A stretch of DNA of 64,000 nt, taken from positions 506,001 through 570,000 of the forward strand of contig CANXME010000298.1 in assembly GCA_948144175.1 (NCBI GenBank). Reading direction: 5' to 3'. Origin of the DNA: Closterium sp. NIES-65. Taxonomy: Eukaryota > Streptophyta > Zygnematophyceae > Desmidiales > Closteriaceae. The notes under the pieces were generated by a model. The model made no database searches. It had not been told where the DNA came from and saw only the letters and a program-made list of their open reading frames with translations. Of the stretch, positions 37,428 through 63,800 are shown piece after piece (position 1 is the first letter of the stretch; the number at the start of each line of letters is the position of its first letter). The position numbers and the translations under genes are program-made.

Positions 37428-40400
37428 TCACCTCAGCTGCACTCCTTTCACTCTCTGTAGCACACTCTCCAAGTCCCCCTCCCCAGCCATCACAGCAGCA
37501 TCCCCCTCCATTGCCTGTGGGCTGAAGGGAACCAATGGGTAAACAAAGAGGTGGACATGAGCTGGATTAGGAGCCTGCTCCACAGGTACAATCTTCTGAC
37601 CAGAAACAGAGCACAAACAAGTCCAGCTGCAATGATTATTTCATATTGGCTCTTACATTCCTTGTGACTGTACCACTTACCTACTGGTTTAGATATGCTA
37701 TTGTGGTTGTGCACTGATTGCACACAAGTCCCTGTTTGCACAGCGAGGAAAATGAGCTCAACTGTTTCGAATGGGCCTGTGGTCGTGCACTGACCCCAAC
37801 ACGTACATCGCCCTCCCCAGCACGTCCTTTAGATGCACGGGTTTACCCTTTCCACCTCCTTGAATATGCTTCATGACTCAGCAGCTCACCTGTTTTGGAC
37901 GGGCCCATGGTCGTGCATCGACCGCACCACATACATCGCCCTCCCCAGCACGTCTTCCAGATGCACTGGGCCTATTGTGCGGCTGTCCCACGCCTCCTGT
38001 GTGCGTCCAAGGGGGAAAAAAGAGAGAGAGGTTATAGGGGCCCATTGTAGAGACTATAGGGGGCCATTGTAGAGATTATAGGGGGCCATTGTAGAGATTA
38101 TAGGGAGCCATTGTCGTGCATTCTCGCGGGGAACTCTCACTCACAAGGCACGCCCTCTAGGTGCACTGGACCACACGTGCAACTGTCCCGTCCCACGCCT
38201 CCTGATGACTTTTGAGTCGACTCAAAAGTCATTTCGCACTGGGCCAAACGTGCAACTGCCCCACACCTCCTGCCCGCATTATAGGAAGATATGGATGGGG
38301 AAGGGGCGCATGGGAAGGGGCGCATGGGAAGGGGCGCATGGGAAGGGGCGCGTGGGAAGGGGCGGATGGGGAAGGGGCGCATGGGAAGGGGCGGATGGGG
38401 AAGGGGCGCATGGGAAGGGGCGGATGGGGAAGGGGCGCATGGGAAGGGGCGCATGGGAAGGGGCGCATGAGAAGGGGCGCATGGGAAGGGGCGCATGGGA
38501 AGGGGCGGATGGGGAAGGGGCGCATAGGAAGGGACGCATGGGAAGGGGCGCATGGGAAGGGGCGCATGGGAAGGGGCGCATGGGAAGGGGCGGATGGGGA
38601 AGGGGCGCATGGGAAGGGGCAGATGGGGAAGGGGCGCATGGGAAGGGGCGGATGGGGAAGGGGCGCATGGGAAGGGGCGCATGGGAAGGGGCGCATGGGA
38701 AGGGGCGGATGGGGAAAGGATGGTTGGGGAAGGGACGGTTGGGGAAGGGACGGTTGGGGAAGGGACGGTTGGGGAAGGTATTAAGTAAGTGCCCCATAGA
38801 ATGTGGATGGACAGAGAAGTCGAACAGGTGGGCACGGCGATATATCATCACAGGTTTGCAAATGAAGTTGTTGAGGCACCTCGAAAAGAGAAGTCCAGCG
38901 ACGTTGGAGTTGCTTGTGAGAACTCTCAGATGCAACTCTTTTATCGCTGGACCTCTCAAAAGAGGTTTGCGAATGATGCTGTTGAGGCGCCCGCCTAGGC
39001 GCCTCAAGAAGAGGTATTGCCTTGGCAGGAATATACCAGCGCAAACGCCATACTCATCACCATTGATTGAGTCTTCTAAGAACTCATTGATTATCACCCT
39101 TGAGTATACCTTAACTCCTTTTGAGGCGCCTCAAAGATCGTCACCCTTGAGTATACCTGAACTCGCCATACTCATCACCATTTCCAAGAAACCTTAAAAT
39201 GATAAACCCCTCGAACATACCTTTGCAGGAACATCGGGGTTATCTGCAAGCAACCAATCAACCTTCAGCAAACCTATCCAATTTTCAATTCAATTACCCT
39301 CAAATAACCTCCCTTGAACATACCTATCCATATGTCAAGTATCCTAAAATAGTCACCCTACCTCTGCAGGAACATCGGGGTTGTCTACAAGCACCCAGAA
39401 GCGATCCCTCTCTACCCTTCTCTATCTTTCTCTACACATTTTCCAATAACCCTTCAGAAAGCACCCTCTTGAACACACCTCTGCAGGAACATCGGGGTTG
39501 TCTGCAAGCACCCAGAAGTGATTCGGCTCTATCCTCGCTCAATCAATCACCCTTGAACATATTTCTCACTTTCCCAAGAACCCTTAATCATCACCCCCTT
39601 GAGCATACCTTAGCAGGAACATCGGGGTTGTCTGCAAGCACCCAGAAGTGATTCGGCTCTATTTGAAACGGCGCATCCGACGGCTGAAATGATGCAATCT
39701 CGTCTCCAGCAACGGCTGCGACTCGCCGAAACACGACTGTAGGCCTTGCTGTCACGGTGGTGTCACAAGGCTCTGCTGTGGTGGTGGTGCTGCTGCTGCG
39801 ACTTGCTGGAAGCTCTGCAGGTGCATGGGCGTTGATGGATTCAGTATGCGAGTAAAGGGTTGTGGCCGCTTGGGGACTGACTTGGCTGCGGGATGCAGCA
39901 GTGGTTGCGGTTGTGGTTGTGGCTGTGGTTGTGGTTGTGGCCTCAAGGCTCACACATAGCACGTCCCCCACATGAACTCTTCTGCATAAGCAAGCAAAAC
40001 AGAAAAAGAAGGAGAACAACTGGCTGGCTTGGCCACTGGATGCAGCAGTGGTTGCGGTTGGGGCCTCCAGGCTCACACACAGAACGTCCCCCACATGAAC
40101 CTTACTTACTGCACGAGAGAAAGGGGTTAGGAGGGTTCGAGTGGGACAGGGAGGGACTGAGATAGAATCTGCTCTCATGGTGATGCTCCTGCCTCTTGCT
40201 GGAAGCTCTGCTGGTGCATGGTCGTTGAGGAATTGCGTGTGTGAATAGAGGATGTGGCCGCTTGGAGACTGGCTTGGCCGCGGGATGCAGCAGCGGTGGT
40301 GGCTGTGGTTGCCTTACTGCATAGAAAGGCAGGAGATTGAGAGGGATTGAGAGGGATTGAGAGGGAGGGAGGGATAGAAAGAGATTGAGAGAGGAGCTCG

Positions 40401-60800: not shown

Positions 60801-63800
60801 GAAGCCATAGCGGACCGGCAGCGAGCCGTGGCCCTCCTGGCGGCCTCTGCTTCTACCTCCAACCCTTACAGCAGTGGGAGAAGTGGGAGCAGTCCGGGCG
60901 ACTACCACCCCTCCGACCTGCCACGGGCGCTGCTCTCTTTGGTACGCTGCTGCTCCTGTGCTGTGCTACCTTCCCTGTTGATACGCCTCAAAAGCACGCG
61001 CACTGCTCTCTTGGGCTGTTTTTGAGGCGCCTCAAAAATCTGCTCTCTTTGGTACGCTGCTGCTCCTGTGCTGCGCTTCCTTCCCTGTTGATGCGCCTCA
61101 AAAGCACGCGCAATGCTCTCTTGGGCTGTAGCAGATTTGTTCTGAGACGTCTCAAAACAAATCTTCATACACGTGGCTGCTGCTCCTGTTCTGCGCTACC
61201 TTCCCTGTTGACGCACCTCAAAAGCACGCGCACTGCTCGCTTGGGCTGTTGCAGACCGCCAGCAAGCTGAGGGGCAGTGGTGGTGGCAGTGGGAGCAGTG
61301 AGGGAAAGGAGGGCCCTTTAGAAGCAGTGGGAGCGGTGGGATCAGTGGGGGAAGGGAAGCTACCACTTCTTCGACCTGCCACGGGGCACTGCTTTCTGTG
61401 TTACGCCACTGCTCGTAGAAGCCACCCCCCCGCCCTGGTTTTTTGAAATCACCCCACACTCGTCATCTCTTGCCAAACCACTCCTCCGACCTGCCACGGG
61501 GCACTGCTCTCTGTGTTACGCCACTGCTCCTGTGCTGCGCGTCCATCCCTCCTCCCTCTATGCGCGCCCACCACTCACCACTCAAGGCCTACCAGCAGTG
61601 AGGTGAGGCCAGTCAGGGAAGCTACCCTACTAGCCTACCACCCACCCCTCCGACCTGCCACGGGCACTGCTCTCCCTGGTATGCTGCCGTTCCTGTGCTG
61701 CTCTCCCTGCCGAGTTGACTTTTGAGTTGACTCAAAAAGTCAATTTGACCTGCCACGGGCACTGCTCTCCCTGGTATGCTGCCGCTCCTGCGCTTCTCTC
61801 CCTGGCCCCACGTGCTCCCACCACTCATAGATTCAGCAACCCCTTTTCGTGCTTGCCGATCCTCTCCTAGGGCCACAGGGGTGACTTTTGTGTCGACTCA
61901 AAAGTCGAGTCGACTCAAAAGTCGAGTCGATTCAAAAGTCGAGTCGACTCAAAAGTCACCTCCATCCCTCCGATTTCTCCCTCTCCTAGGGCCACAGGGG
62001 CCTTTGCGCGGCAGGCAGGACGCAGGGTGGTCTCGAATTCTCGAAAGACATGTATTGAGACTCCAAAGAACCAGGCTACAAAGGCTTAAGGATCACCAAT
62101 TGCTTATGCATTAATATCTGCCCATGCCCAATGAAATCCCTCCCATACTATTCCTTCCCCTCGCTCCCTCTCCCAGGGTCAGGCCCTGCATGCAGCAGGC
62201 GGGTTGCAGGAAGCAGGGTGCACAGGGGAGGGGGGCACCAAGCACCTTGCCTGTCCCTCCCCCCCTTGGTGCCTCTCCCACGGCCAGGCCCTGCATGCAG
62301 CAGGCAGGGTGCAGGAAGCAGTGGAAGCTAACGAACGGGCTGTCGCCCTCCTCTCATCCCATCCTTTTCCATCCCCCATCCTTGCCTGCCCCTCCCCCTC
62401 ACTCCCTCTCCCAGGGCCAGGCCCTGCATGCAGCAGGCAGGGTGCAGGAGGCAGTGGAAGCCAACGAACGCGCCGCCGTCCTCCTCTCATCCCAGAACCT
62501 CACGAGTCCTGCCACGTCAGCAGCAGCCACGTCAGCAGAAGACTCATCAGCAGCCGCCAGCTCAGCGGAGTGGGTGACGGTGTCAGCGGCGTGGGGGATG
62601 GTGGGGCTGTCTTACCATTGGCTGCCGGATGCGGACAAGGCTGAGAGGGCGTTCCGATTGGCTGTTGAGGCGGACCCCCGGTGAGTGACTGAGAGGGGGG
62701 AGTAGTCTATTTTTGAGTCGGGAGTAGTAGTCTATTTTTGAGTTGATAAAGAATAGGGAGTAGTAGCAGGAACAGGTTCAGTCAGATCGGAAAGAGCAGC
62801 ACGGGATTAGCGCCACACCACAGTGAGATGAGATGAGAGATATCCACACCACACAACTGGGCCTGGGAAGAGCACAGTGACCAAAAGCACAGTGACACCA
62901 AAAGCACAGTGACACCAAAAGCACAGTGACACCAAAAGCACAGTGACACCAAAAGCACAGTGACACCAAAAGCACAGTGACACCAAAAGCACAGTGACAC
63001 CAAAAGCACAGTGACACCAAAAGCACAGTGACACCAAAAGCACAGTGACACCAAAAGCACAGTGACACCAAAAGCACAGTGACACCAAAAGCACAGTGAC
63101 ACCAAAAGCACAGTGACACCAAAAGCACAGTGACACCAAAAGCACAGTGACACCAAAAGCACAGTGACACCAAAAGCACAGTGACACCAAAAGCACAGTG
63201 ACATCAAAAGAACAGTGACACCAGAAGCACAGTGACACCAAAAGCACAGTGACTGGGCAATGCTCTGCGGCGGGATGGGATGGGAGGGGCTTTATTTGTC
63301 ATGTTCCGATGTTTTACCATTGGCTGCTGGATGCTGACAAGGCTGAGCGAGCGTTCCGATTGGCTGTTGAGGCGGACCCCCGGCGAGTGAGGCAGGGAAG
63401 AGCACTGTGCTTTTGGTTCCGCCTCAATAGGAACCCACGCTGTTGGTCCCTAGATGGAGTCTCTCCTCCTCCTCTCCCTGACCCCCACCCTCTCCCGTCT
63501 TCACCACACATCTCCTCCCCTCCTCGCTCTCTTCTCACCCCTCTCCCTTTTTGCTGCAGCCCAGGAACCCCACCAGCACAGGCCATGTGCGCTCGGGCAC
63601 TAAGGCCTCTTTCTTGTTTACTCCTCTTCGCCCCCCCCAGCAATGTTGCTATACCACTTGGGATACAAGGATCCGAGGAATCTCTTTCCTGGTTACACCA
63701 TGCTGCCCCGGGCTGCCTCGGGCACTAAGTCCTCTTGTTTACTCCTCTTCGCCCCCACAAATGTTGCTATACCACCAGTCTCCTCTCCTTCTCTCCCTGA

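Follow-up and report, generated by a model that had tools for sequence, protein, structure and literature searches.

In the genome of the zygnematophycean alga Closterium sp. NIES-65, a family of short palindromes with the core TTTTGAG-NCGN-CTCAAAA sits between direct repeats of host sequence. We give about an even chance to the explanation that this is a dispersed hairpin unit inserted at widely staggered nicks, with fill-in of the overhangs making the duplications. The family lies in a 64-kb stretch of contig C298 (positions 506001-570000, hereafter the window) and was followed through the whole genome searched (874,075,685 bp in 2400 contigs; C denotes a contig and L a fetched locus). The explanation draws on six observations: the genome-wide family itself, flanking duplications in the sampled copies, agreement of the two arms within copies of the ACGT subfamily, one-sided shortening of arms, duplicated parts of exons, and nesting of one palindrome in another.

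An earlier note on this DNA had proposed the family from the window, and it is real. There, TTTTGAGNCGNCTCAAAA with up to 3 mismatches has 21 matches, compared to 0.14 expected; genome-wide, the core has 24,964 exact matches, compared to 0 for a reversed control. With any four-base centre, the core occurs at 30,327 places against 4 for the control. Redundant contigs with near-identical duplicate stretches are included in these genome counts (C6/C347/C1658 and C9/C1759 have stretches in common that are 99-100% identical). Exact cores with a GCGC centre number 5,851 and those with ACGT 5,047, and the remaining 14,066 have other NCGN centres; the 50 places listed for the NCGN pattern show TCGA, GCGC and ACGT only. 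When any centre is allowed, 46 of the 50 listed copies have a self-complementary one, compared to 22 of 88 cores that prokaryotic and viral DNA carry by chance, and three of the four others listed differ from a dyad by a single CpG transition. We infer that CpG changes erode the centres of old palindromes. A spread of the family in viruses or prokaryotes was considered and is rejected or weakened: exact matches there lie in 11 viral and at least 120 prokaryotic stretches, and those tested are chance-like, with mixed centres and few repeats. The set of chance copies comprised the 91 listed (11 viral and 80 prokaryotic), 88 of which lay far enough from sequence ends to be tested.

The earlier note had also placed the palindromes between direct host repeats and proposed comparing their flanks with random sites, and in the sampled copies this comparison bears the claim out. 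From 133 exact cores in the fetched loci, we removed 57 with a neighboring core closer than 150 bp, 1 duplicate, 2 at edges and 13 inside tandem arrays, leaving 60 single, non-array copies, mostly from the first contigs listed rather than randomly drawn. The 120 bp on either side were locally aligned with each other; a score of 12 or more counted as a repeat, which was called tight if both gaps summed to 24 bp or less. The 4000 random positions, all unmasked, came from 17 of a set of 20 stretches and from the window (L014, L018 and L024 were excluded). The flanks were similar at 56 of 60 palindromes, compared to 257 of 4000 random positions, and the repeats nearly abutted the palindrome at 31 of 60, compared to 21 of 4000. 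The prokaryotic and viral chance copies reached a score of 12 in 4 of 88 cases and were tight in 1 of 88. A smaller masked test gave 36 of 39 sites at score 12 against 211 of 4000 random positions and 588 of 2000 positions near the sites. Close repeats exceeded this local background too, with a gap sum of 15 bp or less at 20 of 39 sites, 11 of 4000 random and 29 of 2000 near-site positions. These masked tests supersede a first, unmasked statistic that was inflated by tandem arrays (776 of 3000 random positions at score 12).

Repeat length is not fixed. At 33 clear sites, chosen for an identity of at least 0.88 and a gap of at most 24 on each side in a 130-bp search, it ranged from 13 to 103 bp (median, 39), and neither breakpoint had a base consensus. 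Some repeats are perfect (59-60 bp at L029, 23/23 at L033, 16/16 at L043), and copies across the family span about 80% to 100% identity, so that insertion of the palindromes looks old and appears to have continued until recently.

At some loci, the duplicated sequence can be recognized as part of a gene. The palindrome in L227 interrupts a GatB/Yqey-type coding stretch after the codons for EQF; the upstream copy of the repeat ends at the palindrome, and the downstream copy continues into RAGKTKLQGFFTGQV. This locus matches four structure-database sequences (glutaminyl-tRNA synthetase 2hz7 and three GatB), and both alignments shown are gapless at that place. On our reading of the sequence, a splice acceptor would stand at the start of both copies. 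At L228, the end of a PP2C exon (FDGHGGAAVAE), together with an apparent donor site, occurs three times with two palindromes between the copies; the first copy alone is in frame with the exon, and PP2C structures give weak matches (best E, 0.0013). In the mutually duplicate loci L232 and L233, a full ACGT unit is nested in an older TCGA palindrome, about 15 bp of which are duplicated (AGTCGACTCAARAAT, by eye), and the nested arrangement is bounded by perfect 31-bp repeats. Together with the variable repeat lengths, the duplicated exon parts and the nested insertion support one of the two readings offered in the earlier note, a mobile unit with long, variable target duplications. Alternatively, tandem duplications that existed beforehand might have offered junctions where palindromes insert or persist more readily than elsewhere. 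That would suit a genome rich in tandem repeats and the 25 of 56 repeat-bearing copies in which the repeats do not closely abut, but not the excess of close abutment over random positions, the two-copy repeat cut within a coding exon at L227 or the short duplication within an older palindrome at L232/L233, and we give it hardly any credence.

Several palindromes may share one set of repeats. Both in the window (P8 and P9, below) and in L026, GCGC and ACGT palindromes lie among three copies of one repeat, which points to repeated events at one place. Five of 21 listed clusters (L028, L034, L052, L078, L214) have n+1 repeats for n palindromes at an identity of at least 0.85, as expected if an initial repeat-palindrome-repeat was multiplied; in the other 16, an ungapped test matched the outer unit on one side or on neither. 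The near-identical duplicates L027 and L243 differ by one extra 37-bp repeat copy. Locus L024 holds 96 CTCAAAA/TTTTGAG half-words, many of them in a tandem array of units of about 40 bp that perhaps grew from a palindrome. Locus L014 is filled by a short satellite with a unit of about CACGGTGGGTTGAACA.

The subfamilies differ in what lies outside the core. Copies with GCGC are often just about 20 bp long, and those with TCGA often extend outward with GTCACCTCG or similar. ACGT copies often run about 19-20 nt further on one side, terminating in CACGTGG, and reach a maximum as a 54-58 bp hairpin, (GC)CACGTG-N12-TTTTGAGACGTCTCAAAA-N12-CACGTG(GC). The N12 segment differs among copies and tends to agree between the arms of one copy, although one arm is often short. 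Genome-wide, CACGTG-N12-TTTTGAGACGTCTCAA has 973 matches (471 forward, 502 reverse), compared to the 5,047 ACGT copies, and among the 100 matches listed there are 52 distinct 12-mers, all with A at position 6. The arms agree at 6 or more outer bases in 10 of 36 ACGT-type records, compared to a mean of 0.79 and a maximum of 4 after shuffling. Both arms are full at four of the places listed; they agree throughout in L231, L232 and L233 and differ at 2 positions in L234. The 54-bp copy in L231, at 26.5 kb on C298 (the window's own contig), is predicted to fold into a single DNA hairpin (-29.2 kcal/mol, z -13). The outer arm is often shortened on one side, near the start of the host repeat, and both ends can be short. 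At sites chosen and inspected by eye, the end of the arm coincides with the start of the repeat over a few bases of microhomology in L237 (ACAC and CA), L231 (GTG) and L035 (ACG). CGTGG as a shared end of all subfamilies was also considered and is unsupported for TCGA and GCGC. Locus L005, with a GC content of 0.41, has many other hairpins (one with 22-bp arms) and no strong flanking repeats, and may be organellar or foreign.

Many ACGT sites pair a complete arm with a shortened one, which could also reflect a hairpin RNA reverse-transcribed at a nicked target (target-primed reverse transcription), with the complete CACGTG arm as the 3' end and the shortened arm as the 5' end. Variable duplications, a trait of retroposons of the short and long interspersed element (SINE/LINE) type that is present here, and template jumps would follow, and the latter would accommodate 17-bp half-units that were copied again. 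A single constant end, as in retroposons, is partly apparent in the 973 full-arm matches among 5,047 ACGT copies and in the opposite arm, which is frequently short, yet shortening can affect both ends. The arms match within copies yet differ among them, there is no target motif at the 33 clear sites, and no poly(A) or simple-repeat tail is evident there by eye. The only Rfam match in the window is one tRNA. We consider this explanation unlikely.

By definition, miniature inverted-repeat transposable elements (MITEs) have a related transposon and duplicate a fixed length of target. The palindromes possess the inverted-repeat structure of MITEs and cut-and-paste transposons, but their duplications, at 13-103 bp over the clear sites, are not of fixed length, and no parent was found for the ACGT half-ends. 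This half-end occurs without its mirror at 65 places genome-wide, of which 51 end in A and are explained by CpG change; 15 half-ends were listed from the fetched loci, compared to about 4 expected on a rough estimate, and at least 3 of these are tandem halves. No longer element with ACGT-type ends was present in the fetched loci. With 51 of the 65 half-ends accounted for by changed CpGs, and the other 14 set against 5,047 copies, the case for a longer parent of the ACGT subfamily is weakened. It is distinctly unlikely that the family is a minimal non-autonomous DNA transposon (MITE or foldback) whose transposase cuts the target strands far apart, even though the palindrome could represent fused inverted termini and the CACGTG ends, the subfamilies and the nesting would be in keeping with one; variable duplication lengths and shortened ends further count against it.

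We return to insertion of a hairpin at widely staggered nicks. The two target strands would be nicked roughly 13 to 100 bp apart, and fill-in of both overhangs would place the intervening DNA on each side, leaving the insert between long, variable direct repeats. Such fill-in at staggered breaks is an established source of small tandem duplications (PMC8355091), and a variable-length duplication lacking a fixed motif, as expected of repair-type tandem duplication, is what is found here. We speculate that one arm carries the information and that this arm is copied by priming from the conserved core once the latter has folded back. An incomplete hairpin might then be joined to the break, at some sites through a few bases of microhomology, and later array growth would multiply units of palindrome plus repeat.

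The second reading in the earlier note, a scar of staggered-break or template-switch repair, survives in part. A purely local scar is excluded because the conserved core is present in about 25,000 copies, whereas fold-back copying is suggested by the matching arms peculiar to each copy. Staggered breakage with fold-back copying is thus probably the mechanism of the mobile-unit reading and not its rival. Repair could still act alone if end joining captured abundant free hairpin DNA, or copied a palindrome from elsewhere, as filler, with no dedicated mobile system. Tandem duplication is a normal outcome of repair at staggered breaks (PMC8355091) and some junctions show microhomology by eye, but a core conserved through about 25,000 copies, together with the defined ends of one subfamily, would require a privileged donor, which makes this very unlikely. 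Somewhat short of an even chance, in our estimate, is the broader proposal that the family represents a new class of mobile DNA: a non-coding hairpin of 20-58 bp, without a longer parent element, whose genetic information resides in one arm while the second arm is written anew with every insertion. Such a unit would enter wide staggered breaks and duplicate as much as about 100 bp of target per event, and it could thereby enter exons and still leave one copy of the exon and its splice site intact.

Several observations weigh against insertion of a mobile hairpin. The most serious is structural: most centres are perfect dyads without a loop, which simple self-priming by fold-back does not readily explain, and this is the weakest point of the explanation. 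Agreement between arms is only at chance level in GCGC copies and weak in TCGA copies, and microhomology was absent by eye at two of the chosen sites (L050:334 and L221). Fourteen of the 65 ACGT half-ends are not explained by CpG change (9 end in T and 5 in C, the latter being two sequences with different spacing that look chance-like). The repeat is absent or not closely abutting in 29 of the 60 tested copies, with no flanking repeat at all in four (L030, L216, L225, L234), and L234 is the sole repeat-less copy among the four with both arms full. The genome is rich in tandem repeats, and positions near the sites reach score 16 in 425 of 2000 cases as well as score 12 in the 588 given above, so the neighborhood of the sites is itself repeat-rich. 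Finally, no empty allele was found: where L026, L027, L028, L030 and L031 were compared with contig C347, the palindrome was common to all five near-identical duplicate stretches that aligned at the sites (the other five of ten C347 stretches did not), and near-identical duplicates of L029 and L044 align across the palindrome as well. The diverged paralogue L230, too diverged at the 60083 site and usable for P10 only, contains the repeated unit of P10 and no palindrome in the 1.3 kb examined; it holds that unit itself twice, about 144 bp apart.

Sixteen sites in the window were aligned for direct repeats (positions are those of the window; no strand is assigned). A repeat scoring at least 17 within 130 bp was found at 14 of them, and at 9 of 16 (P1-P4 and P7-P11, below) both copies lay 24 bases or less in total from the palindrome. 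Both exceptions to the former are weak: a diverged palindrome with an AAAT centre at 36819-36846 (no flanking repeat found; score, 8.5) and a decayed one at 49379-49396 (19/22; gaps, 30 and 54; score, 14.5). The former also qualifies the claim that palindromes are absent from the left part of the window, which holds, at up to 3 mismatches, only left of 36819. TCGA centres occur in P1 (38205-38232), a perfect 28-bp palindrome between repeats at 38163-38189 and 38236-38262 (24/27), and in P3 (48894-48921; outer arms, TCGTG/CACGA; repeat, 19/20). P10 (61714-61742; 55/58) has TTGA, equivalent to TCGA after a CpG change, and P4 (48965-48986; 29/29) has GTGC, likewise equivalent to GCGC. GCGC itself is found in P2 (39119-39136; 23/24), in P6 (56235-56252) and in P8 (61019-61038; 85/89). 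P9 (61133-61164; 70/77), with an ACGT centre and matching 7-nt outer arms, extends on its right side to CACGTGG, ending at 61176, and adds a third copy of the unit that flanks P8. The multiplication of half-units noted earlier is confirmed in P7 (60083-60157; 52/55), a 28-bp palindrome followed by tandem 17-bp half-units, and in P11 (61881-61959; 20/20), whose halves are multiplied as 17-bp units. The 12-bp repeat reported at P6 is visible nearby, although the score-based alignment chose a different one.

The 40-bp quasi-palindrome at 56148-56187, with arms CGAGGTGA/TCACCTCG, and P6 have one weak, older repeat in common, and the decayed palindromes at 41368-41385 (50/62, non-abutting; gaps, 40 and 16), 48688-48705 (50/63; gaps, 16 and 65) and 60417-60434 (TCGA centre; 24/28; gaps, 59 and 5) are diverged and not tight. 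By eye, a decayed palindrome near 54.9 kb stands in an arrangement like that at 48688, and this old arrangement is common to tandem gene copies of the window. Positions 39591-40313, 48035-48706 and 54238-54984 hold three diverged tandem copies of one gene with no Pfam match above cut-off. Elsewhere in the window, positions 1-36800 hold several long polyprotein open reading frames (ORFs) that their sequences suggest are copia-like, two of them very similar (12514-17028 and 18405-24710). The ORF at 44648-45403 matches a Tc5 transposase DNA-binding domain (PF03221; 23.1 bits, cut-off 22.2) and is perhaps a decayed DNA transposon. Tandem repeats occupy 62871-63253 (a 17-bp unit, 22.6 copies) and 55795-56034 (a 27-bp unit, 8.9 copies).

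Two of the closest counterparts are organellar. Short palindromic repeats in the organelles of Volvox carteri (PMC2670323) are, like those described here, hairpins (11-77 nt) in several families that insert into one another and are thought to be selfish. Their nuclear copies are called inert, their loops are 3-5 nt and the text searched mentions no duplication, whereas the present family is nuclear, with about 25,000 exact cores, a perfect dyad and long flanking duplications. The palindromes and double-hairpin elements of mitochondria (PMC7218506) are mobile hairpins too, and again the text searched mentions no duplication. An organellar origin of the Closterium palindromes is rejected or weakened by where the sites lie, some on contigs about 2.0 Mb long (C10, C21) and some within genes whose coding sequence is interrupted, and one 3.9-kb rbcL locus contains no palindrome. 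The rbcL product aligns with Rubisco large chains from end to end, the best entries belonging to plants and green algae. Separately, 24 matches to the Rubisco large subunit are spread over many contigs (C75, C97, C162, C824, C1848, C2174 and others); plastid DNA was either assembled multiply or inserted. MITEs and Mutator/Foldback elements are likewise short, inverted-repeat, non-autonomous and of high copy number (PMC3169594, PMC4726161). Tandem duplications at staggered breaks duplicate the DNA between opposite nicks at comparable length (43-bp overhangs were tested), but the parts covered of PMC8355091 describe no conserved palindrome at the junction such as the present family has. Bacterial REP palindromes (20-40 bp) are also of high copy number but prokaryotic, and long target duplications are unmentioned in the abstract part of PMC3733652. 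A literature search, with subscription papers outside its coverage, found no description of such a nuclear element among the papers listed, and the candidate mobile hairpin looks like a kind of element not described before.

If the explanation is correct, a very short form of DNA can spread to tens of thousands of copies while leaving both copies of its target in place. It would be a source of new tandem exon and intron material and, through arrays of palindrome plus repeat, of minisatellites. Two questions would also become testable: by what route long target duplications form at natural staggered breaks of a plant-type genome, and whether palindromes are kept perfect by fold-back copying as their sequence drifts.

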